NCBI GenBank assembly: GCA_009694465.1
Contig: SHUW01000004.1
Location: 1-34,731 of the forward strand
Direction of reading: 5' to 3'
Source: Ilumatobacteraceae bacterium
GTDB lineage: Bacteria; Actinomycetota; Acidimicrobiia; Acidimicrobiales; Ilumatobacteraceae
DNA length: 34,731 nt
Every line of letters begins with the position of its first letter. Position 1 is the stretch's first letter. Positions 4,527 to 24,687 of the stretch are shown here, piece by piece. Made by a program: the position numbers and the translations under genes. Below the pieces are notes generated by a model. That model was not told where the DNA came from, did not search any database, and saw only the letters and a program-made list of their open reading frames with translations.

Positions 4527-5561
4527 CTAGATACGCGGGTCAACCAAAATCTTCATGTTGGTTGACGTGCCACTCGCCAAATCAGCCAGACTTGCATCCA
4601 AGCCAGCCAAGCCAATAGTGAGCGAATGCAATGGTTCGGTGCGAAAACGACCATCGGCGATCATCCCCATACATGTCTCAAACTCTTCGTGGTTATAGGC
4701 CAGTGCCGCGGTCACAGAAATCTCTTTCATCAGCCACTGCACAGGAGAGATTGACGCTTCTTGATCTGCCAACCCAATGAGGCACATCGAACCTCCACGC
4801 CTCGCTAAATCAACAGCGCTTTGCACCGCAAACGGGCGACCGACACATTCATAGACAATGTCAGCGCCGAGACCATGCGACAGTTCTTTCACAAGTTCGT
4901 CTGCTGCTGCTCCGGGGGCGACTGCATAATGGGCGCCTAGTTCAAGAGCAATGGCGCGGCGTTGCTCATTGGGTTCAATCACGATGACCACTCCAGCACC
5001 GGCGGCCTTGACCCACTGCATAGCGCCCAACCCAATCGGTCCAGCGCCCTGCACCACTGCGATATCTCCCAAGCGAATCCCACTGCGCCGTACGGCATGA
5101 AAAGCCACGGTCGTTGGCTCCACCTGAGCTGCCTGAATATCGTTCAAAGCAGGATTGGTTTTGACAATACGCGATGCGCTCACAGCAATACGCGGAGCGA
5201 AGCCACCATGCTTAGGGGCCATGGCATCGCGACCGAGAGCGGACATAAATGACACGAAACAACGATCAGCCTGCCCTGCACGACAGGGCGCGCACTGGCC
5301 ACATGCTGGAGCAACAGCAACGACGACGCGATCACCCTCGCTAAAAGATTTGACATCGGCACCCACCGCACTGAGAGTTCCTGACCATTCGTGTCCACAG
5401 ATGGCAGGGTTATACGGTGCTCCGGATTGGTAGGCGTGGATATCAGTCCCGCAGATACCGCAATACGCGATATCGACGACAACTCCTGATGATGCTGGGG
5501 ATGGGTCGGGAAACTCAATCATCTCCACCTTGTTCTTGCCAGTGATCAATGCTGCAAACAT
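4527..5561 (-). CDS. Zinc-dependent alcohol dehydrogenase (MDR; butanediol/threonine dehydrogenase-like)
   Basis: 'CGICGTDIHAYQSG', 'GHEWSG', structural Zn motif 'CGQCAPCRAGQADRC', Rossmann 'GAGPIGLGAMQW'. Confidence 0.88.
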   Translation of the reverse strand: MFAALITGKNKVEMIEFPDPSPASSGVVVDIAYCGICGTDIHAYQSGAPYNPAICGHEWSGTLSAVGADVKSFSEGDRVVVAVAPACGQCAPCRAGQADRCFVSFMSALGRDAMAPKHGGFAPRIAVSASRIVKTNPALNDIQAAQVEPTTVAFHAVRRSGIRLGDIAVVQGAGPIGLGAMQWVKAAGAGVVIVIEPNEQRRAIALELGAHYAVAPGAAADELVKELSHGLGADIVYECVGRPFAVQSAVDLARRGGSMCLIGLADQEASISPVQWLMKEISVTAALAYNHEEFETCMGMIADGRFRTEPLHSLTIGLAGLDASLADLASGTSTNMKILVDPRI

Positions 5562-5654: not shown

Positions 5655-6011
5655 GTGGCAAGCATGAGCCTTATTGCAATTGAAGCATCCATCTACCTCA
5701 ATGATCCTGCAGTCCGTGACGCTGCCGTCGCCGAATCAGTGAAATATCAACAAGCCACGCGCGATGATGAGCCTGGTTGTTTGGTGTATTGCTTCGCTGC
5801 TGATCCATGCATCGCTGATCACATTCAGGTGTATGAACTTTGGGAGAATGCGGAAACTTTAGCCGCCCATTTTGATCATCCGAATTATCACAATATGCGT
5901 GAACTATTGGGCAAATTCGGTCTGAAGTCGGCTGTCAGTCGTAAGCATCTCATCACCAAGTCGGCCCCTGTATACGGAAGCGATTTCAAAGCCAGTTCTT
6001 CGTTTGACTAG
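5655..6011 (+). CDS. Putative antibiotic biosynthesis monooxygenase (ABM)-domain protein
   Basis: 'LVYCFAADPCIADHIQVYELWENAETLAAHFDHPNYHNMRELLGKF' is a typical ABM pattern. GTG start at 5655 or ATG at 5664. Confidence 0.75.
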   Translation: MASMSLIAIEASIYLNDPAVRDAAVAESVKYQQATRDDEPGCLVYCFAADPCIADHIQVYELWENAETLAAHFDHPNYHNMRELLGKFGLKSAVSRKHLITKSAPVYGSDFKASSSFD

Positions 6012-7630
6012 GCGCTCGCTATTTCCTTAGCCCAGCGATAATCCGCTTTACCGGACGGACTGCGGTACACCTGATCAACGAAGATAACTCGACGTGGTGC
6101 TTTGTAGGTCGCCAAAAGTTTCTTGACGTGCTCAATCACTTCGGACTCAGAAATCTCCCCCGAACGCTCTGCCACCAAGGTGATAATTTCCCCGAAGCGG
6201 GTGTCTGGCAATCCAACGACGACGCAATCAACAACGTTCGGGTGTGAACGAGCCGCTACTTCAACTTCTTCGGGATAGACCTTTTCTCCACCCGTATTAA
6301 TGCACACCGAACCGCGTCCGAGAAGATGCACAGTTCCATCTTCATCAATTTCCGCGAAGTCACCTGGAATCGTGTAACGCACACCTTCAATCACCCGAAA
6401 TGTTTGTGCCGTTTTTTCTGCATCGCCAAAATATCCGTCGGGCATTGCTCCCGCAGCCGCAAGAACTCCGTTGCGACCACTTCCAAAGGGAATCTTCTCC
6501 CAAGTTTCCGGGTCAAATAAGGATGTATTAGGAGTCGCCATAAATGCGGCAGTTGCCACTGGGTCTTGACCAGGCATCGTCATTGCCACTGCAAATGGCC
6601 CACCCTCAGATGCCCCGATCATGTCCATCACAACTGCTTGAGTTGCACGTTCCATGAGGGCGCTTTTCATCTCTGATGACAAGGTCGCGCCCGTCGAAAC
6701 AATACGGCTCAGACTGGAAAGATCGTAGGACTCTCCCGATAACTCTGCGCGTTTCAGTTCTTCAACAATTGGGCGAGCAAATGCGTCTCCGACTATTGAG
6801 AGTTGAGAAACTCTTTCACGCTGAACTAGACGCAACAGTTCAGCGGCATCAAAGCGCCTCCCACCAAGAAGTACGACCGTACCGCCAAGTACAAAAGTTG
6901 AAAAAGCTAAAAACATTGCTGTCCCGTGCATCAGCGGAGGTGCAGTCATGTTCACTGGGCTTTTCCCTGCGCCGTTAAGTTCACTGGCAACTCGTGCTAC
7001 ATCGGCCACAGTTTCGGGTAACGCCAAACCCATTGACGCATACCCAGTAAATGCCAAAGCCCCGAATAGTCCAGTGTGGCTCCAAACAACGCCCTTAGGT
7101 AGGCCCGTCGTTCCACCTGTGTAGAGCAGTAGGGAATCATTTCCTGATCGCACAATTGGTGCCATTGGCGCAAATGATTCAATGGCATGCGCGTAGTCAA
7201 CGGCGCTGTCAAGTAGTTCGCTCTCATCACCACCGTCTATCTGCAAAAACAGACGCACCTTTGGCAGTGATGGGCGCGCTTCGCGAACTACATCACGAAA
7301 AGCGGCGTGATACACCAACACCGATGCACCCGAGTCCGCCAAAACATGAATGATCTCTGGTGCTTTGTAACGAAAATTGACATTGACCGTGCTGGCACGA
7401 ACCTTGAATGAGGCATAGGCAGTCTCTAAATATTCTGGACAGTTGTATAACAGTTGTCCGACTTTGGCGTCATGACCAACTCCATACGAGTCAAAGAGTG
7501 AAGCAATACGCGAGGCACGCTCGTCAAGATCTCGCCAGCGAATATGTGTATCGCCAATCACGACTGCGACATGATCTGGCTGCGATGCGGCCAAGGCTTC
7601 CCACAAAGTGGCCCAGTTTTCAGTCAACAT
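6008..7630 (-). CDS. AMP-dependent acyl-CoA synthetase/ligase
   Basis: P-loop-like 'LLYTGGTTGLPKGVVWSH', 'INTGGEKVYPEEVE', C-terminal 'SPSGKADYRW' Lys motif. Confidence 0.92.
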   Translation of the reverse strand: MLTENWATLWEALAASQPDHVAVVIGDTHIRWRDLDERASRIASLFDSYGVGHDAKVGQLLYNCPEYLETAYASFKVRASTVNVNFRYKAPEIIHVLADSGASVLVYHAAFRDVVREARPSLPKVRLFLQIDGGDESELLDSAVDYAHAIESFAPMAPIVRSGNDSLLLYTGGTTGLPKGVVWSHTGLFGALAFTGYASMGLALPETVADVARVASELNGAGKSPVNMTAPPLMHGTAMFLAFSTFVLGGTVVLLGGRRFDAAELLRLVQRERVSQLSIVGDAFARPIVEELKRAELSGESYDLSSLSRIVSTGATLSSEMKSALMERATQAVVMDMIGASEGGPFAVAMTMPGQDPVATAAFMATPNTSLFDPETWEKIPFGSGRNGVLAAAGAMPDGYFGDAEKTAQTFRVIEGVRYTIPGDFAEIDEDGTVHLLGRGSVCINTGGEKVYPEEVEVAARSHPNVVDCVVVGLPDTRFGEIITLVAERSGEISESEVIEHVKKLLATYKAPRRVIFVDQVYRSPSGKADYRWAKEIASA

Positions 7631-7646
7631 TTTTATGCCAACCCCA

Positions 7647-9092
7647 TCAACCTGGCGGCATGATGAACGGCGTCAATGCGCTGACATCACGGTGATCAGC
7701 ATTCAAGCCGTCAATGATGCACTGATCAATATGACGGTGGATGAGGCGCATCCGTGCCTCTTGGTACAACCCAAAACTGACACCCTTCTTGGCATTCTTG
7801 GCGGTGATTTTGAGTCCGAGTTGAACCTTTGGCAAGTTAGCCATGTCCTGTTCAAAGACATCGGCTAATCCTGACATCCCTTCGGCTTCTTTCCATGACT
7901 GCTCGAGTTTGAGGCGTTGAATCGGAGCTGGGTCGGGTCGCTCTTGACCGTCGGGAACTGGCATCATGCGCAACACATCCATATAGCAAGTGTCAGGCGT
8001 GGGGCCAGGGCGCCAGCGATACGTCAGTGATTGTCCCACGCCAGCCCATGGAGCGAAGGCTGGGAACAAGTGATACAGATGCGCGTCAAGCATTTCTGAA
8101 TCAGAAACGTTGGAAAGATCCTTGCCGTAAATCGGACCCATCACCGAGCGGAAAATCTCTGCGACGACTTCGCGTGCCGACGAACCGTCTGGCACTTCAA
8201 CTGATCCACGCTCCGAACGAGCCGAAAAAGCTAAATAGGCGTCGGCTACCTGTTGCTCGCTGAGATCACCAAGATGTGGGCTTTGGATGCCGAAGCCGTT
8301 GATGAAGCGCGTCACGAATGGTGAATCTGCCCAAATGGAATATTCACTGTTGGTGTCACCTGCGAATTCGAGAATCTGCGGATGCGTGGCGATGACGTGA
8401 TACCCCTCGGCGAAGGCCTCCATACAAACCTTCCAGTTAGCTGGAACTTCCTTCACCGCGTGAAAAGCCTTATAACGATTTTCCATGTTGAAATCGCGAC
8501 CGAAATGCTCAATCAGTTTGTCGGCAACTTTTTCAAAGGCCATCGCCTCAGGATCGAGGTTGACAAAGATAAATCCACACCATTCTGCGACGAGAGCCTG
8601 GGGTAAATCAGTGTCGCTCTCGTTGAGTACTTGTGGGAAATCCCATTGGGCAGGGATCTCTGCTAATTCTCCGTTGAGATCCCAACGCCAACCATGAAAC
8701 GGGCAGCGAAAAGAGGCCACTCGTCCATCCTCAACTCGCAACTTTGTTCCACGATGCAAACAAGAGTTATGGAACGCCTTGATTGACCCGTCCTTTGTTC
8801 GTGTCACAATCAGCGATTGATCAGCCACGTCATAGACGACATGATCACCTGGTTGCGCCAACTCGTCCACAGTGCATGCCATTTGCCAAGTCCGAGTCCA
8901 CATGTACTCGTTTTCTAAGGCAGCAAACTCGTGCGAGGTGTAGCGCAGTTTGGGGACATCAGCCTTGCCTTGAGAGACATAAGAATGATCAGTCAAAGAC
9001 GATGGCACCTGACGCGAATCAGCAGTTAAAAGATCCTGAACGGAGGGACCTGTGCTGCGATTCCTTCCTATTTCGGATTCAACGGCCGTCAT
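7647..9092 (-). CDS. Aromatic-ring-hydroxylating (Rieske non-heme iron) oxygenase alpha subunit
   Basis: Rieske centre 'CLHRGTKLRVEDGRVASFRCPFHGW'; mononuclear iron motif 'EAFAEGYHVIATH'. ATGA overlap with the downstream ligase at 9089-9092. Confidence 0.92.
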   Translation of the reverse strand: MTAVESEIGRNRSTGPSVQDLLTADSRQVPSSLTDHSYVSQGKADVPKLRYTSHEFAALENEYMWTRTWQMACTVDELAQPGDHVVYDVADQSLIVTRTKDGSIKAFHNSCLHRGTKLRVEDGRVASFRCPFHGWRWDLNGELAEIPAQWDFPQVLNESDTDLPQALVAEWCGFIFVNLDPEAMAFEKVADKLIEHFGRDFNMENRYKAFHAVKEVPANWKVCMEAFAEGYHVIATHPQILEFAGDTNSEYSIWADSPFVTRFINGFGIQSPHLGDLSEQQVADAYLAFSARSERGSVEVPDGSSAREVVAEIFRSVMGPIYGKDLSNVSDSEMLDAHLYHLFPAFAPWAGVGQSLTYRWRPGPTPDTCYMDVLRMMPVPDGQERPDPAPIQRLKLEQSWKEAEGMSGLADVFEQDMANLPKVQLGLKITAKNAKKGVSFGLYQEARMRLIHRHIDQCIIDGLNADHRDVSALTPFIMPPG

Positions 9093-10732
9093 GACTGTCC
9101 TGATGTTTGGGATTCTTCAAACAAACTGCGAGCTGTCCCGTAATCCGCTTTTCCGTTAGGGGCTCGCGGCACTGTCGTGACAAATACAAGTTGCTTGGGA
9201 ACCTTATAACTCGAGAGTTTAGTTTTGGTGTAAGCAATGACTTCTTCCCCAGTGGGAATACGCTCCCCAGGATTCACCGAAGCCACGCCGACTACGCGTT
9301 GTCCAAAGCGCTCATCGGGGATTCCAAAAACCAAACAGTCCGCCACTACCGCATGGGTTTTGACGGCCTCTTCGACTTCTTCGGGGAAAACCTTTTCTCC
9401 AGCTGTATTGATGCAGTTTGAACCGCGGCCCAACAAGGTGATCGTTCCATCGGCCTCAACAACTGCCATGTCGCCGGGAAAACTGTAACGAATACCGTCA
9501 AAACTCCTAAAAGTCCGATCTGATTTTTCCGGATCTTTGTAGTAGCCAATCGGCACCCCAGAGCCACTCACGCCAACCATGCCTTGTTCACCAGAACCTG
9601 GAACAACTTCTTTGCCAGTCTCAAAGTTGATGACCTTGGTATTGGGCATCGCGCCAAACTTGGCAGTCGTATTGATATTCGCCTTGGTGGCCATTGTCTG
9701 ACCCATTCCACCTTCGCTGGAACCGAGGATGTCCATCACAACTGTGTTCGGCATATATTCAAAAATTTCGGCCTTGATATCTGACGAGAACATTGCGCCT
9801 GTTGACATAATCATTTTCACTGCCGACGTGTCAAAGGGCGTCCCCGTGTCTGACTGTTGTTTGAGAGCTTGCACCATCGGTCGAGCGAAAGCATCACCAA
9901 CGATGATCAAGGTGCCGACTCCATGACGCTCGACAACGCGGAACATTTCCGCGGCGTCAAAAGACTGCCCCTCGAGAAGAACTACTTTGCCGGCCATCAA
10001 ATGAGGGACCAGTGCGCCCAGCCAGACTCCCGTGCCATGCATCAAGGGACAACAAGGCATACCGACTGGTTGACCGGAACCTGTATGAATCATTTTCGCT
10101 AACGCCGACACTCCTTCAATGCTCGTGATAGCGGGAAGCCCAGCAGAATTTGTATAAAAGCCTAAGAAACCCTCGGTAAAGGAGCCCATCGGGTACATCA
10201 CGCCTTTCGGCATCCCCGTTGTGCCTCCGGTGTACAACATGTACAAGTCGTCAACTCCGCGAACAATACGCTCTGCTGGATCGTGATCATCCAGAACCGA
10301 TTCCCATGGAATCGCCCCGATGACCCCAGCCGAGGAGGAATCAAGAACCTCTATCAAGAGTCGCAATTTGGGCAAACGATGCGCAATTCGTTGAATACGA
10401 TCGCCAAGACTTGAATGGAAAACAAGAGCTTCACAATCAGCGTTATCTAAAAGATAGAGCAACTCATCGTCAAGATAGCGATAGTTGACATTGACTGGCG
10501 TGACCCGATTTTTGAAGGCCGCGTATTGGGTAATCAAATACTCTGGGCAGTTGTACATGAACATGCCAACTTTTGAGTGTTCGCCAATGCCGTTGAATTT
10601 GAAGGCTGCGGCAAGACGCGCTGCATGCTCGTCATATTGTGACCATGTCACTTCCACGTCACCGCAAGCAATTGCGACTGCATCAGGAAACTCGTCGGCA
10701 TGCGCCTCAAAAATATTTGCGTAAGTCAGCAT
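9089..10732 (-). CDS. AMP-dependent acyl-CoA synthetase/ligase
   Basis: 'MLYTGGTTGMPKGVMYP', 'INTAGEKVFPEEVEE', 'APNGKADYGTA'; start chosen at MLTYANIFEAHADEF (ATG 10730-10732) with GGGGGGA upstream. Confidence 0.92.
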   Translation of the reverse strand: MLTYANIFEAHADEFPDAVAIACGDVEVTWSQYDEHAARLAAAFKFNGIGEHSKVGMFMYNCPEYLITQYAAFKNRVTPVNVNYRYLDDELLYLLDNADCEALVFHSSLGDRIQRIAHRLPKLRLLIEVLDSSSAGVIGAIPWESVLDDHDPAERIVRGVDDLYMLYTGGTTGMPKGVMYPMGSFTEGFLGFYTNSAGLPAITSIEGVSALAKMIHTGSGQPVGMPCCPLMHGTGVWLGALVPHLMAGKVVLLEGQSFDAAEMFRVVERHGVGTLIIVGDAFARPMVQALKQQSDTGTPFDTSAVKMIMSTGAMFSSDIKAEIFEYMPNTVVMDILGSSEGGMGQTMATKANINTTAKFGAMPNTKVINFETGKEVVPGSGEQGMVGVSGSGVPIGYYKDPEKSDRTFRSFDGIRYSFPGDMAVVEADGTITLLGRGSNCINTAGEKVFPEEVEEAVKTHAVVADCLVFGIPDERFGQRVVGVASVNPGERIPTGEEVIAYTKTKLSSYKVPKQLVFVTTVPRAPNGKADYGTARSLFEESQTSGQS

Positions 10733-10814
10733 TTGTATTTCCCCCCACTGGATTAAAACCTGATCTTTTGCCCTGATAAAGAGCAAATGGATGAACACTT
10801 ATAGGGTAGGCGAA

Positions 10815-11465
10815 ATGCTTGATGCCACTCCACAGGGAACGAACATTCGGGCAATAGTTTTTGATTTCGGCGGGGTCCTGATTACTTCGATCACCCATCA
10901 ACTCCATAACATCGCCGTGGACCACGGGGTGGACGTGGCAACTATGTTGAGAATTCTTTTGGGGCCCCACGAGAGTGGTTCTCACCCTTGGCATCAAGCT
11001 GAGCGCGGTGAGATTGCCGTTTCCGCCATTCAAGAAGGCCTCCAACCGTGGGCGACGCCGCATGGCGTGCGTTTGCAGGGTGACGAGATTGACGCCCTGA
11101 TGGCCCCTGGTCAGTACACGGTGATCACCCCAATGTTGGACAAGGTCAGCGAACTGCGAGAACGGGGCTATAAAACTGGACTGCTCACTAACTCATTCGC
11201 CGAATTTCGTCCAACCATGCAAAGAGATCTTCGTTTTGAGGACTTCTCAGCAATTATTGAGTCCTTTGCCGTCGGCTCACGCAAGCCAGAATCGGCGATC
11301 TATGAGGCCACAGCCCGGATGCTTCAGGTCCCGCACTCAGAGATTCTGTATCTCGACGATTTCGCGCAAAATATTGCCATGGCACAAGGCTTTTCTTGGA
11401 GCACGATTGAGGTTCATGACCCACTCTTGGCCTTAGCCGAGATTGAGACTTTCTTGCCCCTCTGA
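10815..11465 (+). CDS. HAD-like hydrolase (HAD-IA type, epoxide-hydrolase-N-terminal/ACAD10-like phosphatase domain)
   Basis: 'AIVFDFGGVLITS' nucleophile motif, 'TGLLTNSF', 'GSRKPESAIYEATARML', 'ILYLDDFAQNIAMAQ'. Upstream alternative ATG at 10791; start uncertain. Confidence 0.8.
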   Translation: MLDATPQGTNIRAIVFDFGGVLITSITHQLHNIAVDHGVDVATMLRILLGPHESGSHPWHQAERGEIAVSAIQEGLQPWATPHGVRLQGDEIDALMAPGQYTVITPMLDKVSELRERGYKTGLLTNSFAEFRPTMQRDLRFEDFSAIIESFAVGSRKPESAIYEATARMLQVPHSEILYLDDFAQNIAMAQGFSWSTIEVHDPLLALAEIETFLPL

Positions 11466-11519
11466 CATTCGTGCACCTCGGTACCAGTCAAAAGTAATCA
11501 GATGGTCAATAATGGAGTT

Positions 11520-12896
11520 ATGACGACTCTTGAACCTCGACCTGCCCGCTCTCCTGGGGTCAGTTATCAGGAGTTACTTGACGCCGACACCCATCCAGTC
11601 CCTGCGGTGTTGCGCCTTGAATCTCCCCTCTATCTAGGTGATACGGATATCCCCGTTGAGCGTTACATATCCAGAGAATGGCACGAGATTGAGAAAGAAC
11701 GGCTGTGGAGTCGGGTCTGGCAGTTCGCATGTCGTGAGGAGCAAATCCCAGATGCAGGCGATTACGTCGTCTACGACATCACCAACCAGTCCTACATAGT
11801 GGTGCGCCAAGACGATGGGACGATTAAGGCGTATCCGAATGCGTGTCTACACCGCGGTCGTCGACTCAAAGATTATGACGGGCATTGCTCGGAAATTCGT
11901 TGCCCATTCCACGGATTTTCTTGGGCCCTCGAAGGTCACCTCACCGATGTTCCTGCTCAATGGGATTTCCCCCACGTTGAAGAACGAAGAGAAGAAGATT
12001 TTCATCTCCCCGAATGTCAGGTTGGTACATGGGCGGGATTTGTGTTCATCAACCCAGATCCACAATGTGAACCATTGAGCGATTTCCTCGGTGGCATCCA
12101 GGAGCAATTTGAGATTTGGAAGTTAGAAGATCGATTTATCGAAGCCCATGTCACAAAAATTATTGGTGCTAACTGGAAGATCGCTCAGGAAGCTTTTAGT
12201 GAGGCATACCACGTCAATGCAACTCATCCGCAAATCCTCCCCTACCTGGCTGATACGAACTCCCAAGTTGATGTGTGGGAAAACTATTCACGCGTCATCA
12301 CTGCTGGCCTGTCGACTAGCCCACTGCTGTGGTACGACGTAAGCGAAGATGACATGATGCGCGGCATGCTTGACGTTCGCGTAGATCAAGACAGTCCGAT
12401 CAAAATTCCTGCTGGTCAAACCGCGCGCGCCGTGGCTTCAGCCTCAGCGAGAGATCGTTGGCGATCTGCTGTTGGTGATCGCGTCGACTCCATGAGCGAC
12501 TCCGAGATGATGGACAGTATTGACTACACAATTTTTCCAAATTTGCATCCTTGGGGAGCCTTTAACCGCATTGTCTATCGCTTTCGACCCAACGGCGATG
12601 ATCACCGATCATCAATCATGGAAGTCTTCTTTCTCTCGCCCTTTTCGGGCAAGAGACCACCTAACGCCAAGCGTCGGGATCTCGCCATTGACGAACCTTT
12701 TACCAATGCCACAGAGTTGGGCATGTTGGCAAAGGTTTTCCAACAAGATGTTTTCAATATGAGCAAAGTTCAGGCCGGCCTAGAAACAACATGGAAGCCA
12801 GGCGTCACCTTGGGTAATTACCAAGAGGTCAAAGTTCGCTGGCTGCATAAGCTCCTCGGGGAATTTGTCAACAAAGACTTCACGGGACGGCACTGA
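11520..12896 (+). CDS. Aromatic-ring-hydroxylating (Rieske non-heme iron) oxygenase alpha subunit
   Basis: Rieske centre 'CLHRGRRLKDYDGHCSEIRCPFHGF'; iron motif 'EAFSEAYHVNATH'; clear paralogue of 7647..9092. ORF opens at 11502, alternative start MTTLEPRP at 11520. Confidence 0.9.
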   Translation: MTTLEPRPARSPGVSYQELLDADTHPVPAVLRLESPLYLGDTDIPVERYISREWHEIEKERLWSRVWQFACREEQIPDAGDYVVYDITNQSYIVVRQDDGTIKAYPNACLHRGRRLKDYDGHCSEIRCPFHGFSWALEGHLTDVPAQWDFPHVEERREEDFHLPECQVGTWAGFVFINPDPQCEPLSDFLGGIQEQFEIWKLEDRFIEAHVTKIIGANWKIAQEAFSEAYHVNATHPQILPYLADTNSQVDVWENYSRVITAGLSTSPLLWYDVSEDDMMRGMLDVRVDQDSPIKIPAGQTARAVASASARDRWRSAVGDRVDSMSDSEMMDSIDYTIFPNLHPWGAFNRIVYRFRPNGDDHRSSIMEVFFLSPFSGKRPPNAKRRDLAIDEPFTNATELGMLAKVFQQDVFNMSKVQAGLETTWKPGVTLGNYQEVKVRWLHKLLGEFVNKDFTGRH

Positions 12897-12897
12897 G

Positions 12898-13116
12898 ATG
12901 CATGGCATTATCCACCCTTTTAGCAAAGCCTTATACGAACAAGATGGTGAAGGTCATATACGAGTCTCCTTCGAAGGCAAGTGGGGCTTATTCAACGACA
13001 ATGGCAGTTACATTGAAGGCGAGATTCGCGAGTGCGACCCACAGTTGTGTGGCTGGGTGGGTGGACCTCAGGTGGCGAACCATCGCGTCGTCATTGATCC
13101 ACTTGAAAGACACTGA
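12898..13116 (+). CDS. Small uncharacterised protein (72 aa) between a Rieske oxygenase and a ThuA-like gene
   Basis: ATG immediately after the upstream TGA (12894-12896); MHGIIHPFSKALYEQDGEGHIRVSFEGKWGLFNDNGSYIEGEIRECDPQLCGWVGGPQVANHRVVIDPLERH has a protein-like composition; co-directional with flanking genes. Confidence 0.6.
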   Translation: MHGIIHPFSKALYEQDGEGHIRVSFEGKWGLFNDNGSYIEGEIRECDPQLCGWVGGPQVANHRVVIDPLERH

Positions 13117-13155
13117 ACAGTTGATTGTGCTGACCCATACGGACATTCGGTTCTT

Positions 13156-13956
13156 GTGATGGGTATGACAGCCAGCCCGCTGCGGGTTCAAGTCGTGACT
13201 GGTGGACACCCATTCGTTGCCGAACCCTTCTTTGCGATATTTGATTCCATGACAGAAATTGATTGGACCCCAGCCACCACACCGACGCTGGGTTACGACG
13301 TTGTTGTCTTTTACGACATGCCGGGTCTGCAATTCACAGGCTCCAATCCGCCAGTGAACTTTCCCGAACCAACACCCGAGCACCTAGGTGTACTACAGGG
13401 ATTGCAAGACGCTGGTGTTGGTTTAGTGTTTATGCACCATTCTTTGGCAAGTTGGCCGGCGTGGGAGGGCTTTGCTGAACTCATCGGCGGACGATTTCAT
13501 TATCAGCCGGCGACTTTGCGGGGAACGCAATATCCAGATTCGGGTTATGTTTTTGATGTTCAACACACCATTGAAGTGTTGGATCAACAGCACCCGATCT
13601 GTGCGGGATTGAGTGATGCCTTCACCCTGACCGATGAGTTGTACTGCTGTCCCATCTTCGAAGATGATGTGACACCGCTGATGCGCACCAACTTCCCCAC
13701 TCACGATCCGACTCTCTTTAGTTCCTCGGACCTAGCGATTCGCGGACAACGCAATAGCAACGCGGGATGGACGCATCCTGCAGGAAGCAATGTGGTGGCG
13801 TGGGTGAAAAAGGCCGGCAACTCCCCTTTGGCATATCTCCAATTTGGGGACGGTCCAGTGACCTATGGTGATCCGAACTTTCGCCGAGTACTGAGTAACG
13901 CCATCACCTGGGCAGCCTCGGCTGACGCTCAACTATGGGCATCAACTGAGGCTTGA
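13156..13956 (+). CDS. ThuA-like (trehalose-utilisation / class I GATase-like fold) domain protein
   Basis: 'QVVTGGHPF', 'YDVVVFYDMPG', 'GVGLVFMHHSLASWPAWEGFAELIGGRF', 'HPICAGLSDAFTLTDELY', 'SNAITWA' match the ThuA pattern. Confidence 0.82.
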   Translation: MMGMTASPLRVQVVTGGHPFVAEPFFAIFDSMTEIDWTPATTPTLGYDVVVFYDMPGLQFTGSNPPVNFPEPTPEHLGVLQGLQDAGVGLVFMHHSLASWPAWEGFAELIGGRFHYQPATLRGTQYPDSGYVFDVQHTIEVLDQQHPICAGLSDAFTLTDELYCCPIFEDDVTPLMRTNFPTHDPTLFSSSDLAIRGQRNSNAGWTHPAGSNVVAWVKKAGNSPLAYLQFGDGPVTYGDPNFRRVLSNAITWAASADAQLWASTEA

Positions 13957-13976
13957 GGCAACGAACCTAGAAGAAG

Positions 13977-14615
13977 TTAACTCCAACTATTCCAACGCAC
14001 AAACTTTTCTGCAGCAACGCGCTTGGCCACTTTAAAGTCAGTGCCAATTGTGTAGGCCACAGGGAATAACCCAGCCTGGGTGTATTGATCAAATGGAATG
14101 CCGAGCAATTCGGCGGCCTCTTTTTCGTTGGGCAAGTGCAAAGTTGTCCATGCTGAACCCATACCGCGTTCGCGCAATGCCAACATGAAACTCCAGACTG
14201 CTGGCAACAATGATCCCCAAGCCGAAGCTTGACCAAAAGTTGGAGTGCCAGCATCGAGGCGACCAGCAATGAGCGGAATCAGTAACACCGGAACCTGATC
14301 CATGACATCGGCGAGATAGGTCGCTGAATCCAGGATTCGCTCACCCTGATGATCTCCTCGGGGGCGATTGGGGTCATTGACATATGGATAAAAGTTTCCG
14401 CGATACATATCGGCCAAAGCCTTCTTCTTCACTGGGTCATCAACGAAGAGCCAACGCCAACCCTGCATATTGGAACCAGTTGGTGCCTGATGAGCTATTT
14501 CGATGCACTCCATCAATACTTCACGCTCCACGGGCCTTTGCAAGTCGAGTCGCTTGCGCACCGAGCGCGTCGTTGTCAAGACCTGATCGGCCGTTAGTCC
14601 TAGTCGTTCACTCAT
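13977..14615 (-). CDS. Nitroreductase family protein
   Basis: 'TTRSVRKRLDLQRPVEREVLMECIEIAHQAPTGSNMQGWRWLFVDD' is a canonical nitroreductase N-terminus. Confidence 0.88.
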   Translation of the reverse strand: MSERLGLTADQVLTTTRSVRKRLDLQRPVEREVLMECIEIAHQAPTGSNMQGWRWLFVDDPVKKKALADMYRGNFYPYVNDPNRPRGDHQGERILDSATYLADVMDQVPVLLIPLIAGRLDAGTPTFGQASAWGSLLPAVWSFMLALRERGMGSAWTTLHLPNEKEAAELLGIPFDQYTQAGLFPVAYTIGTDFKVAKRVAAEKFVRWNSWS

Positions 14616-15145
14616 GATTTATCTGCTTTCGTTTTAGTGGCCTGTTCGGCCATCCATTCGGATGTTGCTTTACCCATTTTCCCGCCGTCATATCCAATAC
14701 GTTGCGTCGGTTTGACTTCAAGAATGACACGGCGGGGGGAATCTAAAAATAATGTGAAGGCGTCACGCTGAGTTGACGGACCACCGAGAATCGCTTCTGA
14801 CAACTCTGGATAAAACCAATCCTTTGTTGCTTGATCATCATGCAAGACGCATTCGCCTTTCCAGGTGACAGTTTTATTGCGCGCCATTGATGATCCAGTT
14901 GAGGTGACAACAACGCACACGCGCGGGTCACGACGAACCGCGGAAATTCGTGCTCGTTGCGATGAAGCCGTTAGCCAAAAACTTCCTCGTCGCCAGACAT
15001 AGGACATGATCACACCTACTGGCCAACCTTCTTTATTTGACCAAATAAAGGTGCATTCATTCTGCGCCAGTAACAGTTGTTCCTCAACATCCTCGTCAAG
15101 GCCAAAGACGGTGACATCTTCATAATTCTCTGGGTGCTCTGTCAT
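14612..15145 (-). CDS. Pyridoxamine 5'-phosphate oxidase-like (FMN/F420-binding split barrel) protein
   Basis: 'ECTFIWSNKEGWPVGVIMSYVWRRGSFWLTASSQRARISAVRRDPRVCVVVTST' split-barrel pattern; RBS AAGGAG; ATGA overlap with the nitroreductase. Confidence 0.8.
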   Translation of the reverse strand: MTEHPENYEDVTVFGLDEDVEEQLLLAQNECTFIWSNKEGWPVGVIMSYVWRRGSFWLTASSQRARISAVRRDPRVCVVVTSTGSSMARNKTVTWKGECVLHDDQATKDWFYPELSEAILGGPSTQRDAFTLFLDSPRRVILEVKPTQRIGYDGGKMGKATSEWMAEQATKTKADKS

Positions 15146-15180
15146 CTTTTTCTCCTTATTGAATTTTCTTGATCATCTTG

Positions 15181-15954
15181 CTAAGAATCCGCTGGCAACT
15201 CACGTGGCATAAATTGCCCAGTGTTAGCAGTAATACCACCATCAACTGGAACGACTGCTCCAGTCACAAAACTTGAGGCCTGCGAGGCCAGAAAAACAAT
15301 AACTGCTGCTACTTCTTCGGCCGTGCCCCAGCGTTGAAGAGGAACGGCCCGCCGCAGGCTTTCGTACACCTCGGGAACCTGCTTGATGCCCGTTGTCATG
15401 CCGGTTTCGGTCGGGCCTGGACACACAACATTCACGGTGATTGCGTCTGCGGCAAGGTCAAGCGCGGCCCCTTTAGCCAAATTGATGACTGCAGCCTTTG
15501 CGGTGTTGTAGGCCCACATATTTGGATCTGCGTTAATGCCCGACGTCGACGCAGTGATGACGATACGACCGCCACCCCGCCTTCGTAAAGCTGGAACCGC
15601 AGCGCGGATACCAAGTAGGACCCCACGAACATTGACTTCAATCGTTCGATCAAAGATCTCGATGGGCATCATCACAATGTCTCCACTCGCAGGTACGCCA
15701 GCATTCAAGATCATTGCGTCTAAACCGCCGAACTCACTGTCTGCAAGAGAGACTGCGGCATTATTCACCTCTGCGTCAGTGACATCTCCCTCAACAATAA
15801 GAACCCGATCCAGTTTGGCGAGTTCGTGTAACTCGGCACTGGGACGGTCGATGACCACCACTGACCCTCCACTCGCGAGCAAGGCATCAACCGTGGCACG
15901 ACCAATGCCAGAGGCCCCGCCCGTCACGATAGAAACGCGTGTCATCGTCGCCAC
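15181..15954 (-). CDS. SDR family oxidoreductase
   Basis: 'TGGASGIG', 'LNAG', 'YNTAK' and 'GAVVPVDGG'. Confidence 0.88.
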   Translation of the reverse strand: MATMTRVSIVTGGASGIGRATVDALLASGGSVVVIDRPSAELHELAKLDRVLIVEGDVTDAEVNNAAVSLADSEFGGLDAMILNAGVPASGDIVMMPIEIFDRTIEVNVRGVLLGIRAAVPALRRRGGGRIVITASTSGINADPNMWAYNTAKAAVINLAKGAALDLAADAITVNVVCPGPTETGMTTGIKQVPEVYESLRRAVPLQRWGTAEEVAAVIVFLASQASSFVTGAVVPVDGGITANTGQFMPRELPADS

Positions 15955-16005
15955 ACAGCGCGTATCAGAACGACAACAAGTCTGCGCAGGAGCCAGGCCA
16001 CTGAA

Positions 16006-17214
16006 TTACCCCTGCCCGACAGTGTCTTTGTCTGTGCGCAGCGTCCAGCGAATCGGCAAGGTCGTGAGGCCGCGCAGAATAAAAGGTTGATTGACTTGTA
16101 CGGGACCAATGAGTTCAACTTTCTCAAAGGTTTCTACCATCCACCGCAACGCCAACTGCCCCTCGCGACGCGCCAAGACATTACCGATGCAGTGATGCAC
16201 TCCCCATCCAAATGCCAGATGTGGTTTTGAGCCGGGACCGAATCGGTCCAACTGAATGTCGTCAGGGTCCTGCCAAACTTCAGGATCACGATTCGCCGCT
16301 GCAAATAACAATTGCACCTTGGTATCCGCTTCAATTTTTTCGCCGTGCACCACACACTCATCGCGATTGGTACGAAACAGACCCTGCACTGGAGAGTCAT
16401 AGCGCAAGAACTCTTCGACAGCCCACGGGATCAGCGACGGGTCAGCACGCAATAAATCGCTCAATTCCGGTTGCTGAATCAGGCGATACAACATCAGGCT
16501 CAAAAGACTGGCCGTCGTTTCGTGACCAGCAACTAAAACCTGTTGCGACAACCGCCGAACTTCACCGTATTGCAAATCACCATTGCGATAGGCCAGTGTC
16601 AGCACAGTCAGTAAATCATCTGGTGGCGTTTCACCTCGCTCAAGTATCTCTTGACGTTCGGCGACCAAAGCGTCAACGAAGCCGTAGATCCCTTCATTGG
16701 CGATAGCCACAAGAGATAGATCTCCGCCACCTAAGCCGTTGACGATGTCATCGGACCAATGTCCGAATTGTTCACGATCTTCGGGCCGAATGCCCAGCAT
16801 CTCGGCGATCACAATGGCCGGGAAAGGAAAAGCAAAGAGGGTGACGAAATCACCTTCACCATCGCTGGCAAATGCCTTATCCCACAATTCGCGTCCAATG
16901 ATGTCGACCCGTGGGGCCAATGAGGCAATGGCCGCTGGGCGAAATCCATCTTGTAAAACTTTACGTTGACGGCGATGATCCGGGTCATCAGCAGAACCTA
17001 AAACCCCGCCTTCCTGAAAGAAAACACCGGGCCCATCGCCGTTAGTCCACTGCGCTGGGTCTGTGAGCATTGACAAGACATCCTCGTGCCGACTGACGAC
17101 ATAAAAAGGCGGATCAAATGTATCTTCCTTGTGCAATGGGCAATGTTCAATCAAGTGATGGTGCCCAGCAGCGGGCTCAAGATCATTGGCGTGTTCGAGA
17201 TGTGAATAAGTCAC
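16006..17214 (-). CDS. Cytochrome P450
   Basis: I-helix 'VAGHETTASLL', K-helix 'EEFLRYDSPVQG', heme loop 'HLAFGWGVHHCIGNVLARREGQLAL' (FxxGxxxCxG). Start appears to be GTG. Confidence 0.93.
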   Translation of the reverse strand: MTYSHLEHANDLEPAAGHHHLIEHCPLHKEDTFDPPFYVVSRHEDVLSMLTDPAQWTNGDGPGVFFQEGGVLGSADDPDHRRQRKVLQDGFRPAAIASLAPRVDIIGRELWDKAFASDGEGDFVTLFAFPFPAIVIAEMLGIRPEDREQFGHWSDDIVNGLGGGDLSLVAIANEGIYGFVDALVAERQEILERGETPPDDLLTVLTLAYRNGDLQYGEVRRLSQQVLVAGHETTASLLSLMLYRLIQQPELSDLLRADPSLIPWAVEEFLRYDSPVQGLFRTNRDECVVHGEKIEADTKVQLLFAAANRDPEVWQDPDDIQLDRFGPGSKPHLAFGWGVHHCIGNVLARREGQLALRWMVETFEKVELIGPVQVNQPFILRGLTTLPIRWTLRTDKDTVGQG

Positions 17215-17260
17215 GCAATCACACTCAATTCCGCAGGATCTTGATCAGCGATCTCACGAC

Positions 17261-18043
17261 CTAATACGAGAGGCTTCCACCATCGACGGGGAACAAACAG
17301 CCCGTCATATTTCGCGCCGCGTCACTAGCCATCATCACCGCAACGGCGGCAACTTCTTCGACCTTATTCGGACGTTTGATTGCCGACTCTGCACAGAACG
17401 TAGCAATTAAATTGTCGTAGGTCCCAAGCCCCATCGCCACTGCGGAAGCAGGGCCTGTGTTGCGCACGATGTCAGTTTCAATAATGCCCGGCAAAATTGC
17501 ATTGACTGTGATGCCGAGAGTTCCAACTTCTTGGGCTGCTGATTTCACTAATCCGTTCACAGCATGTTTGGTGGCAACATATCCAGGAATACCGGGCTTA
17601 CCAAGTTTTCCTTCCACCGATGAGGTCACAATGATGCGACCACTTTCGCGAGGGATCATATGTTGCAGAGCCCGACGCATGCCCCAGAAAACATGATTCA
17701 GGTTCCAATCGATTTCCAGGTTCCATTCTTCGTCACTCATCTGTGCCACTGGAGCAGTGTTCAAGACACCGCCGGAGTTCAGGCAACAGATATCAAGCTT
17801 GCCGAACTTTTCAATAGTGAAATCAATCAATCCTTCAACGACTGATTGCTTTGAGGAATCGCCAGCGAAGAATGCGGCACGTGCACCAGCATTCATCTCG
17901 TCTAAACAGATTTGACCCTTGGCGGCATCGCGTCCGTTGACCACGACTGTCGCACCCTCAGCCAAGAAGGCATCTGCCATGGCGCGCCCAATGCTTCGCG
18001 TGCCACCAGTAATGCAAGCTATTTTTCCGTCAAGTTTTCCCAT
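17261..18043 (-). CDS. SDR family oxidoreductase (tandem paralogue A)
   Basis: 'TGGTRSIG', 'YVATK', 'FPVDGGSLSY'; start set to MGKLDGK (18041-18043) because its leader GGGGACTGAC aligns with the paralogue's leader GGGGACGAC. Confidence 0.9.
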   Translation of the reverse strand: MGKLDGKIACITGGTRSIGRAMADAFLAEGATVVVNGRDAAKGQICLDEMNAGARAAFFAGDSSKQSVVEGLIDFTIEKFGKLDICCLNSGGVLNTAPVAQMSDEEWNLEIDWNLNHVFWGMRRALQHMIPRESGRIIVTSSVEGKLGKPGIPGYVATKHAVNGLVKSAAQEVGTLGITVNAILPGIIETDIVRNTGPASAVAMGLGTYDNLIATFCAESAIKRPNKVEEVAAVAVMMASDAARNMTGCLFPVDGGSLSY

Positions 18044-18088
18044 GTCAGTCCCCATTATCTATGTCGAAGGTTTTTAGTGAACAAAATT

Positions 18089-18868
18089 TCAGTACGGCGA
18101 AGTTCCACCGTCGATAGAGATCATTGATCCCGTGATTCCCGCACCTGCGTCGGAGGCCAACAAGACCGCCACGAGAGCGACGTCTTCGCACTCGTTGATG
18201 CGCTTGATCGCCGACTCTTGAGCGAACAAATCCAATAAGCCTTCGTATGTCAGACCCATGGCTTCAGCCGCACCTGGTCCCTGGGCCATCATCACATCAG
18301 TTTCAATAGCTCCAGGACAAAGTGCATTGACGGTGATCCCCATCGTGCCCACCTCTTGGGCAGTCGACTTCACGAGTCCGTTAATGGCGTGCTTCGAAGC
18401 CACATATCCCGAAACCATGGGCTTACCCATCTTTCCTTCAACAGAACTCATGGCCATGATTCGACCTGAACCTTGAGGAATCATGTGCTTCAAGGCAGCT
18501 CGCATCGTCCAAAACGTGTGCCAAAAGTTCCAGACCATCGGAACTTCCATGGCCTCATCGGTCATGTCCACCACTGGGCCGGGGTCACCGCCACCGCCAG
18601 CATTTGGCACCAAGATGTCAATACGACCGAACTTCTCCACCGTGCCATTGACAATCGCTTCACAGTCCGCGCGTTGAGTCACATCTCCAGCGATGAAATG
18701 AACCCTGTCTCCAGCATTCAAATCGTCAATTGACTTTTGACCCTTCACTGGATCACGACCGTTGATGACGACCTTGGCACCCTCAGCCAGAAAGGCACGA
18801 GCAACCGCCAGCCCAATTCCTCGAGTTCCCCCCGTTACGCAGGCAACTTTTCCATCAAGTGTTCCCAT
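18089..18868 (-). CDS. SDR family oxidoreductase (tandem paralogue B)
   Basis: 'TGGTRGIG', 'YVASK', 'ISIDGGTSPY'; many shared blocks with paralogue A ('SGRI..SSVEGK.GKP...GYVA.KHA.NGLVKS.AQEVG..GITVNA'). Confidence 0.9.
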   Translation of the reverse strand: MGTLDGKVACVTGGTRGIGLAVARAFLAEGAKVVINGRDPVKGQKSIDDLNAGDRVHFIAGDVTQRADCEAIVNGTVEKFGRIDILVPNAGGGGDPGPVVDMTDEAMEVPMVWNFWHTFWTMRAALKHMIPQGSGRIMAMSSVEGKMGKPMVSGYVASKHAINGLVKSTAQEVGTMGITVNALCPGAIETDVMMAQGPGAAEAMGLTYEGLLDLFAQESAIKRINECEDVALVAVLLASDAGAGITGSMISIDGGTSPY

Positions 18869-19641: not shown

Positions 19642-19758
19642 GCCGCCATCTTGACCGAAAGCCCAGCGAAATCTCCCAGCGAGCACACCGCACCTATTTT
19701 GCTCAGAGAATCGCTCCTCGGTTCTGATAATGATCGTTCGGTCAATTACGGTAGGCAT
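19642..19758. promoter_or_regulatory. Divergent intergenic region between the TetR gene and the acyl-CoA dehydrogenase; probable promoter/operator region
   Basis: Head-to-head arrangement of a TetR regulator and a catabolic gene; no strong palindrome recognised by eye (only imperfect AATGATCGTT). Confidence 0.4.
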
Positions 19759-21066
19759 GTGACTACTTCACAGGCTCCATCCGCTTCTGCGACGAACGAA
19801 TCTGCGCTTCCTTCCGTTGAAGAATTTTCCCAAACTGCTCGCTCCTGGCTCGAAGCCAACGCTGAGTACCGCACTGGTGGCAACGAGGAGAAAGAAATGG
19901 TTTGGGGAGAAGGAGAGTTCTCAGTTTCCGTCTTCCACTCCTTGAGTTTCGCCGATGAGCAAGCTCTTCTCAACAAAGCAAAAGCTTGGACTCAAGCTAA
20001 AGCCGAACACGGATATCACGCCATCACCCAGCCTGTTGAATATGGCGGTCTCGGATTGACTCGTGAGTACAGCCGTGCCTTTGCAAAACTTGAAAGCCTT
20101 TTCGTGACTCCCACCGGACACGAAACTCACAGCGTGACAGTCGGACTGATCGCCCCAACAATTAATGTCTTCGGCACACAACAGCAAAAAGACGATTTTA
20201 TTGGACGCTTCCTAGCGACCAAAGAACTTGCCTGCCAACTTTTTTCTGAGCCTGGCGCCGGCAGCGACCTCGCCTCATTGGCTTGTCGCGCCGATCGAGA
20301 CGGCGACGAGTGGGTCCTCAATGGTCAGAAGGTTTGGTCATCAGGAGCACAGTTTTCCGAGTGGGGTGAACTCATCGCACGCAGCGATGTTGATGTTGTC
20401 AAGCATAAAGGTATGACCGCCTTCATCATTCCGATGAATCTTCCAGGTATTGAGATTCGACCGATCAAGCAGATGAGTGGTGGTTCATCGTTTAACGAAG
20501 TTTTCTTCAATGATGTTCGGATACCTGACTCAATGCGTCTCGGACCTGTTGGCGAAGGCTGGAAGGTGGCGCTCACGACCTTGGGCTTTGAACGCGATCA
20601 TTCGGGTGATGGAGGCGGCGGAGGTTCGCGTGTTGGCGGCTCGTGGCGACAAATCCTCGCCACCGCTCGCGCTATGGGTGTCACTAGTGATCCGATCATC
20701 CGCCAAGAGTTGGCTAAGGCTTATAGCCATTTCCGGATTGAAGGTTTCGTGAATCGTCGAGCCTCCGATTTGCGGCGCGCTGGAGCGCCGGCTGGTCCCG
20801 AGGGCTCGCTTGGCAAATTGATGTGGACAGAAGGGATGACGTATATCTCCGATGTCATTTCCAAAATTCTCGGTGCAACTCTGATCGCTGACAGTGGCGA
20901 GTGGGGCACTTTTGCTTGGGGAGAACATGTCCTCGGAGCACCCGGATACCGCATCGCTGGTGGATCCGATGAAACTCAACGCAATATCATTGGCGAACGC
21001 GTACTCGGCTTACCTGGTGAGCCCCGAGTCGATAAGGACTCAGCATGGAAAGACACCCGTCGCTAG
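19759..21066 (+). CDS. Acyl-CoA dehydrogenase family protein
   Basis: 'ACQLFSEPGAGSDLASLACRADRDGDEWVLNGQKVWSSGAQFSEWGELIAR', 'FNEVFFNDVRIPDSMRLGPVGEGWKVALTTL', C-terminal 'GGSDETQRNIIGERVLGLP'. GTG start at 19759 inferred. Confidence 0.92.
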   Translation: MTTSQAPSASATNESALPSVEEFSQTARSWLEANAEYRTGGNEEKEMVWGEGEFSVSVFHSLSFADEQALLNKAKAWTQAKAEHGYHAITQPVEYGGLGLTREYSRAFAKLESLFVTPTGHETHSVTVGLIAPTINVFGTQQQKDDFIGRFLATKELACQLFSEPGAGSDLASLACRADRDGDEWVLNGQKVWSSGAQFSEWGELIARSDVDVVKHKGMTAFIIPMNLPGIEIRPIKQMSGGSSFNEVFFNDVRIPDSMRLGPVGEGWKVALTTLGFERDHSGDGGGGGSRVGGSWRQILATARAMGVTSDPIIRQELAKAYSHFRIEGFVNRRASDLRRAGAPAGPEGSLGKLMWTEGMTYISDVISKILGATLIADSGEWGTFAWGEHVLGAPGYRIAGGSDETQRNIIGERVLGLPGEPRVDKDSAWKDTRR

Positions 21067-21122
21067 ACAACTAACTGCGGTTTATTCAGTAATACTCAAA
21101 CACACAACTATGGGGGAACATC

Positions 21123-21878
21123 ATGGATCTAGGACTCGCAGGAAAAAAAGCACTCATCACGGGCTCAACCAAAGGCCTTGGCCGTGCCATTGCTGAAACA
21201 TTGCTCGCTGAAGGGGCATCCGTCGCAATTTGCGCCCGCAACGCTGAAGAAGTGGCCACAGCAGTTGCCGAAATGTCAAAACTTGGAAAAGTCGTCGGCG
21301 CATCGGTAGATGTTGGCGATCCAGAAGCCCTTCGCGCTTGGGTGGCATCATCGTCAGAGCAGCTCGGCGGCATTGACATCTACGTACACAACACGTCCGG
21401 AAAGCCTGCCCGCAAACTTGAGCAGTGGATCAATAACTTCAATATCGATTTGATGGCCTTAGTTCACGGTGTTGACGCCGCTAAAGAAGCACTCGCTAAC
21501 GGTGGTGGCTCGATCATCAGCATCGGTACCACTGCAACGAGCGAACACTTTGCAAGTGGTTCAGGTAGCTACAGCGCAATGAAGTCAGCTGTTGTCAACT
21601 GGACATTGGGTCAGGCCCAAGTTCTTGGCGCCCAAGGAATTCGTTGCAATGTTGTCTCACCTGGACCAATCATGGTTCAAGGTGGCGACTGGGACATGAT
21701 CAAAAATGCCATGCCACCTTTCTTTGAGGCCACCCAGAAGGGTCACCCACATGGACAGTTGGGTGAGCCCATTGATGTCGCTAAGACCGTCGCCTTTCTC
21801 GCAAGTCCAGCAGCCCGACACATCAGTGGCGTCAATGTCACTGTTGATGGTGGCTTCTTAAAGCGCATCGACTTCTGA
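21123..21878 (+). CDS. SDR family oxidoreductase (atypical NNAG region)
   Basis: 'TGSTKGLG', 'YSAMK', 'VNVTVDGGF'; the usual NNAG is 'HNTSG'. RBS GGGGGAA before ATG. Confidence 0.88.
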   Translation: MDLGLAGKKALITGSTKGLGRAIAETLLAEGASVAICARNAEEVATAVAEMSKLGKVVGASVDVGDPEALRAWVASSSEQLGGIDIYVHNTSGKPARKLEQWINNFNIDLMALVHGVDAAKEALANGGGSIISIGTTATSEHFASGSGSYSAMKSAVVNWTLGQAQVLGAQGIRCNVVSPGPIMVQGGDWDMIKNAMPPFFEATQKGHPHGQLGEPIDVAKTVAFLASPAARHISGVNVTVDGGFLKRIDF

Positions 21879-21888
21879 GCCACTAGCC

Positions 21889-22659
21889 ATGAGCAGCGGC
21901 ACACCGGGCCGTCGTATCGACGTCACTCTCGTCGCTGGCGGCAAATATCACGACATTGACTTCGCTCGTCGCGAGTTACTTGACTTGCTTGGCGAACATG
22001 ACGAGTTTCGAGTGCGCGTGCAACCCGATTATGAGGACACCGCAGGAATCACTGCATCGTCGATCCTCGTCTCGTATACCTGCGATGTACGACCCAGCGA
22101 ACGTGCTCAGCAAGAAGTACGTCAATGGGTTGAAAATGGTGGACGTTGGGTGGCGCTACATGGCACGAATGCGGCGCTCACACTCGGCGGACCGAACGGA
22201 GTCGAGGCCCCACGAGTATTCCCACTCTGGGCTGAAACCCTAGGTAGCCAATTTGTTGCTCATCCCCCGATTCAGCCGTACCCAGTTCAGATCAGCGACC
22301 CATCGCATTGGCTTGTCTCAGGTATTGAAACTTTTGACACCGACGACGAGTTGTATCTCTGCGATTACGCCGACCGTTCTGCACTTCAACCTTTGCTGCA
22401 CACCACATGGCAAGGCGAAGCGACTGGATTTGTCGAACACGATTGGAATGAGTGCGACCCGACACATTTGATTATGTATCTTCGCAATGTAGGTCAGGGC
22501 TCCATTTTGTATAACACCCTTGGACATTGCCGCGGACATTACGACATGGCACCCGTACTTGATTACTACCCGCGCATTGAAAGATGCTCATGGGGCCAAC
22601 CTGCGTATTACGAATTGTTGCGTCGCTCACTGCGGTGGGCGCGCGGCCTTGATCACTAA
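21889..22659 (+). CDS. ThuA-like domain protein
   Basis: 'VTLVAGGKYHDIDFARRELLDLL', 'VENGGRWVALHGTNAAL', 'HWLVSGIETFDTDDELYLCDY', 'GSILYNTLGHCRGHYDM...ELLRRSLRWA'. Confidence 0.85.
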   Translation: MSSGTPGRRIDVTLVAGGKYHDIDFARRELLDLLGEHDEFRVRVQPDYEDTAGITASSILVSYTCDVRPSERAQQEVRQWVENGGRWVALHGTNAALTLGGPNGVEAPRVFPLWAETLGSQFVAHPPIQPYPVQISDPSHWLVSGIETFDTDDELYLCDYADRSALQPLLHTTWQGEATGFVEHDWNECDPTHLIMYLRNVGQGSILYNTLGHCRGHYDMAPVLDYYPRIERCSWGQPAYYELLRRSLRWARGLDH

Positions 22660-22676
22660 GAAAGTATTAGGAACAT

Positions 22677-24679: not shown

Positions 24680-24687
24680 ACAAAATC

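Follow-up and report, generated by a model that had tools for sequence, protein, structure and literature searches.

A putative small subunit encoded beside a Rieske oxygenase alpha subunit in a conserved catabolic cluster of freshwater Ilumatobacteraceae

Gene content and conservation of the locus

The DNA analyzed here (the window, a whole contig of 34.7 kb) belongs to a metagenome-assembled genome of 1.48 Mb that is 69% complete. Judging by its named relatives, it falls within the Acidimicrobiia, close to freshwater Ilumatobacteraceae ('acIV' bins). Three genes lie on its minus strand: ACS1, an AMP-binding acyl-CoA synthetase (6008-7630), Rieske A, an oxygenase alpha subunit of 481 aa (7647-9092; PF00355 and PF00848), and ACS2, a further acyl-CoA synthetase (9089-10732). 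Both synthetases are of the PRK07798 subfamily, matching NF005863 with 582.7 and 578.7 bits, respectively, over a cut-off of 543. The ACS2 start was moved from the listed GTG at 10798, which is too early, to the internal ATG at 10732, because the NF005863 match begins at residue 24, adjoining that ATG. Divergent from this set, the plus strand carries a gene for a HAD phosphatase-like protein (10791-11465; PF00702, with TIGR02247 at 88.9 bits, under its cut-off of 125), a second alpha subunit of 464 aa, Rieske B (11502-12896; PF00355 and PF00848), an open reading frame of 72 aa (12898-13116), hereafter SP, which we propose from its linkage, fusions and co-loss as a small subunit of Rieske B, and ThuA1, encoding a ThuA-like protein (13156-13956; PF06283). 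The intergenic region between the two sets (10733-10790) measures 58 bp, or 82 bp with the HAD start at its second Met. All seven genes named by an earlier, sequence-only reading are thus present, its estimate of a ~60-80 bp gap was close, and the two Rieske proteins that it took for paralogues share 38-40% identity. It had further suggested that the two operons are co-regulated; as no sigma-70-like promoter match was found in 10600-14100, gap included, against 3.0 expected by chance, this remains an assumption.

Beyond ACS1, the locus is flanked by genes for a Zn-dependent alcohol dehydrogenase (4527-5561, minus strand) and an ABM-domain protein (5655-6011, plus strand). Downstream of ThuA1 follow a nitroreductase, a PNPOx-like protein, an SDR, a cytochrome P450 and two SDRs (13977-18868, minus strand), and then an acyl-CoA dehydrogenase, an SDR, a second ThuA (21889-22659) and an acetoin-dehydrogenase-like block in the order E1a-E1b-NAD/AcoX-kinase-like-E2 (19756-27145, plus strand). 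These flanks are all kept among relatives. A third alpha subunit of 402 aa, Rieske C (29503-30711, minus strand), has its homologue directly 3' of SP in many relatives.

Judged by every defining residue, Rieske B is the alpha subunit of a Rieske non-heme iron oxygenase. Its cluster ligands (C115/H117/C134/H137), its iron ligands (H237/H242/D416) and the bridging E234 are invariant among 50 aligned relatives, and PF00355 and PF00848 match with E-values of 6e-16 and 2.9e-16. The best PDB matches of the Rieske alpha include 9jp5 and 2b1x, the catalytic-domain profiles aligning to solved structures only as far as the two histidines. The top NCBIfam match for the Rieske proteins was GbcA, with 105.3 bits for Rieske B and 115.6 for Rieske A, the cut-off being 670. 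Neither protein reaches a curated equivalog, so the sequence-only reading survives one of the two outcomes that it had named as refuting, a fall inside a well-characterized substrate clade. No NTF2/SnoaL-like beta-subunit gene was recognized among the Pfam-scanned proteins of the window, and no ferredoxin or reductase gene was recognized in its 34.7 kb.

To place the locus among its relatives, the window proteins were mapped onto 20-kb stretches of their genomes. A common gene order extends across the genus: EcKL kinase, SDRs, TIM-barrel protein, alcohol dehydrogenase, ABM protein, ACS1, Rieske A, ACS2 and, in some congeners, HAD; then Rieske B, SP, ThuA, nitroreductase, PNPOx, SDRs and P450; and finally acyl-CoA dehydrogenase, second ThuA and the acetoin-dehydrogenase-like block. 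The window locus is thus part of a conserved catabolic cluster of ~30 kb in freshwater Ilumatobacteraceae. Many congeners lack HAD and have a phosphotransferase kinase and a protein of 154-164 aa between SP and ThuA. Among the loci read, the ACS1/Rieske A/ACS2 set occurs only in this genus and one neighboring genus, and more distant relatives are without ligases, Rieske A and HAD but still have Rieske B and SP as a pair. The core of the cluster is therefore Rieske B plus SP, with the ligase pair, Rieske A and HAD as local additions; ThuA is the second most conserved 3' neighbor of the pair. Overall, the neighborhood described in the sequence-only reading is real and, far from being unique to one contig, conserved genus-wide, whereas back-to-back ligase/Rieske modules do not define the unit, and the small protein that had been called an orphan accompanies Rieske B more faithfully than any other.

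Association of the small protein with Rieske B

A single nucleotide separates the stop codon of Rieske B from the SP start codon (TGA G ATG). Close relatives of SP occur in 35 of 100 relative genomes, for which reason the reading frame is regarded as a real gene, and among these 100 relatives SP sites coincide with Rieske B sites. When GTDB genomes were scanned with SP alone, a Rieske-B-type alpha was present at every one of the 80 loci kept, the best of 218 that encode a relative. Taking all loci read together, 120 of 121 SP matches were found beside (same strand, within ~130 bp) or inside a Rieske-B-type alpha, in a tally where two overlapping collections enter some genomes twice. One SP-like half-domain, by contrast, is borne by an enoyl-CoA-hydratase stub that has no Rieske gene in its vicinity. 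These data strongly support an association between SP and Rieske B.

Three architectures make up the 120 linked matches. SP is located 3' of alpha in 98 and 5' in 17, the latter with an alpha from a sister subfamily of ~50% identity, and it is fused to alpha in five. Most alpha/SP junctions show a stop/start overlap of the TGATG/TAATG type or a gap of a few bases, and from this gene anatomy the translation of the two proteins would usually be coupled. In the fused subfamily, the SP domain is inserted in the catalytic domain, between Rieske B residues ~278 and 303 as placed by sequence comparison alone, where it replaces a short helix 36-60 residues past the second iron-binding histidine. Among 397 sampled genomes of the order, SP was detected in 56, representing 30 of 203 genera, and many of these matches lie inside frames of 529-590 aa, which is the length of the fused form. 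An AlphaFold model was obtained for a natural in-frame read-through alpha-SP chain; its alpha part reached a mean pLDDT of 71, with residues 397-468 below 50, which is too poor to place SP.

In a tree of Rieske alphas from the loci, SP is present in every one of the 96 tips that descend from the last common ancestor of the SP-linked alphas (support 0.998), and the sister group, which includes Rieske A, is SP-less. No divergent SP was found near these sister alphas with all filters off, an empty gap separating matches of E<1e-4 from the next at 0.28. Relatives such as Rieske A therefore show that the Rieske fold as such does not need SP. In a second tree (FastTree), to which Rhodococcus, Nostoc and sphingomonads were added, the main SP clade comprised 56 tips after thinning and had a support of 0.991; a single divergent SP-linked alpha (L162) fell outside it at low support. 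Apart from this unstable placement, the SP-linked alphas hence make up a single clade. In addition, two congeners constitute a natural experiment of co-loss: they lack Rieske B, SP and ACS1, yet they have ACS2, Rieske A, the kinase, the 154-aa protein, ThuA, nitroreductase and more. This joint loss with the flanks retained links SP to Rieske B rather than to its neighbors.

Across 397 sampled genomes of the phylum, SP was present only in the family of the window. Matches in MAGs assigned to Binataceae, Acidobacteria and Pseudomonadales may reflect either genuine transfer or errors of binning. Among plasmid records it was found on five Rhodococcus megaplasmids. Rhodococcus sp. ZPP has an alpha of 50% identity (WP_208963840) followed by a 67-aa 'hypothetical protein' (WP_208963839) and ThuA, with E1 alpha/beta genes upstream, so that the order alpha-SP-ThuA is common to the window locus and a Rhodococcus megaplasmid. 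In Rhodococcus sp. USK13, the order is alpha, a 94-aa protein, aldehyde dehydrogenase, E1 alpha and E1 beta, with an ATGA overlap. Plasmid relatives from sphingomonads, Diaphorobacter and Nostoc (37-46%) are without SP, and in Croceicoccus and Novosphingobium humi alpha is directly followed by ThuA. The link with ThuA consequently spans the divide between alphas with and without SP, and SP marks one branch.

Nature and proposed role of the small protein

SP and Rieske B have similarly low dN values against congeners (0.14-0.27 and 0.13-0.21, respectively) with dS saturated for both genes, which indicates that strong purifying selection acts on SP. The AlphaFold2 model of SP predicts a core of four strands and one helix, with pLDDT >90 for residues ~11-50. 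Conservation falls mainly on Gly, Pro, Phe, Val and Trp residues, plus one Asp. His6 and Cys51 are near-invariant, yet they are substituted in some Rhodococcus copies, making metal or cofactor binding, or catalysis, by SP unlikely. The Pfam search returned no family for SP, the beta-subunit families included (best E 0.0019, in one of 74 members tested), and the window copy had no match in NCBIfam or PHROGs. No sequence relative was present in the PDB at E<=10, and Foldseek, run against the PDB and the viral models of BFVD, gave no fold match at E<=0.001. By these searches, SP belongs to no described small-protein family. We also considered and rejected a function of SP in phage or plasmid addiction, as there was no phage or PHROGs match and the plasmid matches were only to Rhodococcus catabolic loci.

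We propose that a single oxygenase comprises both Rieske B and SP as subunits, with SP at the catalytic domain and the enzyme acting in CoA-dependent catabolism, and we put the probability of this reading at roughly three in four. SP would be a domain of ~8 kDa, probably non-catalytic, that packs onto the catalytic domain of alpha by the loops leading to the mononuclear iron. Since one subfamily has SP built into alpha, we infer that it binds alpha permanently also where it has its own gene, in a physical complex with SP over the entrance and a part in substrate handling. In characterized Rieske enzymes, active-site loops control entry and selectivity (PMC12445004). By analogy with these loops, and given the insertion site, SP most likely completes or gates the substrate entrance or stabilizes the oligomer, which other Rieske oxygenases achieve through beta subunits or long loops. 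The natural fused and split forms would offer a built-in test of subunit function at the catalytic domain.

SP might instead be a redox-partner adaptor, contributing to the docking surface for a ferredoxin or reductase and not to the substrate entrance. Docking specificity could matter where the window holds no recognized gene for either partner, and known beta subunits also touch redox partners (PMC12445004). Nevertheless, the insertion falls in the catalytic domain past the two iron-binding histidines, outside the Rieske domain, and SPs as a whole share no strictly conserved charged or Cys/His signature; we consider such a function unlikely. It is very doubtful that SP acts as a transient maturation factor or chaperone for alpha (in iron-sulfur or iron loading, or in folding), as might be supposed from its small size, obligate linkage and co-translation, because a transient factor has no need to be kept permanently in the alpha chain, as SP is in one whole subfamily, and close relatives mature without it. 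Finally, the operon is conserved across the genus, as would also be seen if SP were an unrelated pathway gene or a chance frame and only the undescribed ligase/Rieske operon were of interest, but SP accompanies Rieske B even at loci devoid of ligases, Rieske A and HAD, occurs fused to it and disappears together with it, which makes that idea scarcely credible.

With Rieske B and SP read as two subunits of one oxygenase, the enzyme would be of an alpha-SP type, in place of alpha3 or alpha3-beta3. Known terminal Rieske oxygenases are alpha3, alpha3-beta3, alpha3-alpha'3 or alpha3-alpha3 (2025 review, PMC12445004). These types do not include a subunit of 70 aa, and a small Rieske subunit of this size was not found described in the literature searched, which together suggest a new small partner for a Rieske oxygenase. 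What would be new here is this partner, the alpha subunit itself being of a known kind. Rieske B resembles the alpha subunits of alpha3-beta3 oxygenases (naphthalene, biphenyl and phthalate 3,4-dioxygenase) in its Rieske and catalytic domains, its ligand pattern, a length of ~450 aa and the small partner gene adjoining it. However, SP has only ~70 aa and does not match NTF2-like beta subunits, it may be inserted within alpha, and the bridging Asp of these enzymes is Glu in Rieske B. Membership of this class was rejected, as no NTF2/SnoaL-like gene was recognized beside alpha among the Pfam-scanned proteins of the window. The bridging Glu (E234) is shared with Group V alpha3 enzymes, i.e., the carnitine (CntA) and glycine betaine (GbcA) monooxygenases, the residue in CntA being E205 (PMC7948474). 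Some members, CntA among them, also have a Cys-X-X-Cys pair next to the iron site (Cys206-X-X-Cys209 in CntA; PMC10952381), whereas the corresponding positions in Rieske B are Ala and Val (EAYHV), and nothing comparable to SP is described for CntA or GbcA. A Group V quaternary-amine oxygenase was thus rejected for Rieske B, on the missing Cys pair and the score of 105.3 versus 670 bits. In phthalate dioxygenase-type alpha3-alpha3 hexamers, an extended region of the catalytic domain makes oligomer contacts (PMC12445004). Set side by side by description, the inserted SP is a possible analogue of this extension, but the latter is described as part of the chain and not as an independent gene.

More broadly, and with less confidence, we lean towards SP being a third kind of partner beside beta and alpha', that is, a tiny subunit of new fold at the entrance, occurring as a free 3' or 5' gene or as an inserted domain, and defining an alpha-SP clade in Acidimicrobiia and Rhodococcus within an undescribed CoA-dependent pathway. 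In the literature searched, we found no report coupling Ilumatobacter with Rieske oxygenases, or Rieske oxygenases with ThuA and acyl-CoA synthetase. If the proposal is correct, annotation and expression of Rieske oxygenases would have to change to take into account a very small subunit with an evolutionary history of its own. Cloning only the gene for the 'aromatic ring-hydroxylating dioxygenase subunit alpha' from loci of this kind would then omit an essential piece, and easily so, because SP is a 'hypothetical protein' wherever its annotation was seen. The hosts belong to a group that contains abundant actinobacteria of fresh and marine waters, about whose catabolic substrates little is known, and the same gene pair is present in culturable hosts, namely the Rhodococcus isolates.

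Pathway and substrate

The CoA ligases, P450, SDRs, acyl-CoA dehydrogenase and acetoin-dehydrogenase-like complex encoded around Rieske B and SP point to a CoA-dependent catabolic route served by the locus. One pathway of this kind would be the classical actinobacterial degradation of steroids (cholesterol-type). Both CoA ligases are in the PRK07798 subfamily, which we take to include the mycobacterial FadD19, a P450 and many SDRs are present, and the locus of Desertimonas flava adds a flavoprotein similar to KstD and 4-oxocyclohexanecarboxylate dehydrogenase. Nonetheless, this flavoprotein scores far under every equivalog cut-off, and in five congeners that are 90-97% complete there was neither a KstD-like match at E<=1e-40 nor an HsaC-type match at E<=1e-20. 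At these thresholds, the lack of both homologues leaves canonical steroid-ring degradation unsupported; a cluster of that type was rejected, and we regard a steroid locus as highly improbable. The flavoprotein of D. flava hints at an alicyclic ketone, and the substrate of Rieske B-SP would probably be an alicyclic or bulky carboxylic compound.

Rieske alpha subunits around SP and an exception

In many relatives (loci L132, L138, L142 and L151-L158 from other genomes or plasmids), the gene found directly 3' of that for SP, the 72-aa protein proposed as the small subunit of Rieske B, encodes a homologue of Rieske C (window 29503-30711; approximately 50% identical), resulting in an alpha-SP-alpha' tandem. 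Locus L117 (188-3103) holds one SP gene between two Rieske B copies, in the order alpha-SP-alpha. Over all loci read, the sole SP match not near a Rieske alpha subunit is in L078 (7731-8045, minus strand), with no Rieske gene in its surroundings. This 104-aa hybrid carries the C-terminal two thirds of the SP domain fused behind an N-terminal enoyl-CoA hydratase stub.

SP-alpha pairs under other taxonomic labels

Some SP-alpha pairs come from MAGs that carry a Pseudomonadales, Acidobacteria or Binataceae label (L111, L141, L146, L162, L164, L165). As some of these are nearly identical to actinobacterial copies, the labels may reflect binning or labelling errors.

ThuA and kinase genes

A ThuA gene lies directly 3' of sphingomonad alphas belonging to the SP-less relatives (L180, L181), so the association of ThuA with this group of oxygenases may be ancient. 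In many congeners, two further proteins are encoded between SP and ThuA (L107 10256-11745; L091 10243-11736): a phosphotransferase of the APH type and a protein of 154-164 aa that has no Pfam match. Neither occurs in the window, where HAD instead lies 5' of Rieske B and positions 72-1148 encode an EcKL/APH kinase. The set of kinase, HAD and acyl-CoA dehydrogenase is reminiscent of ACAD10/11 and levulinate-type 4-hydroxyacyl-CoA phosphorylation. A second ThuA is followed by acetoin-dehydrogenase-like E1a, E1b, NAD-kinase/AcoX-like protein and E2 genes (window 21889-27145), a block that is conserved across Acidimicrobiia, as are the SDR and acyl-CoA dehydrogenase genes that accompany it.
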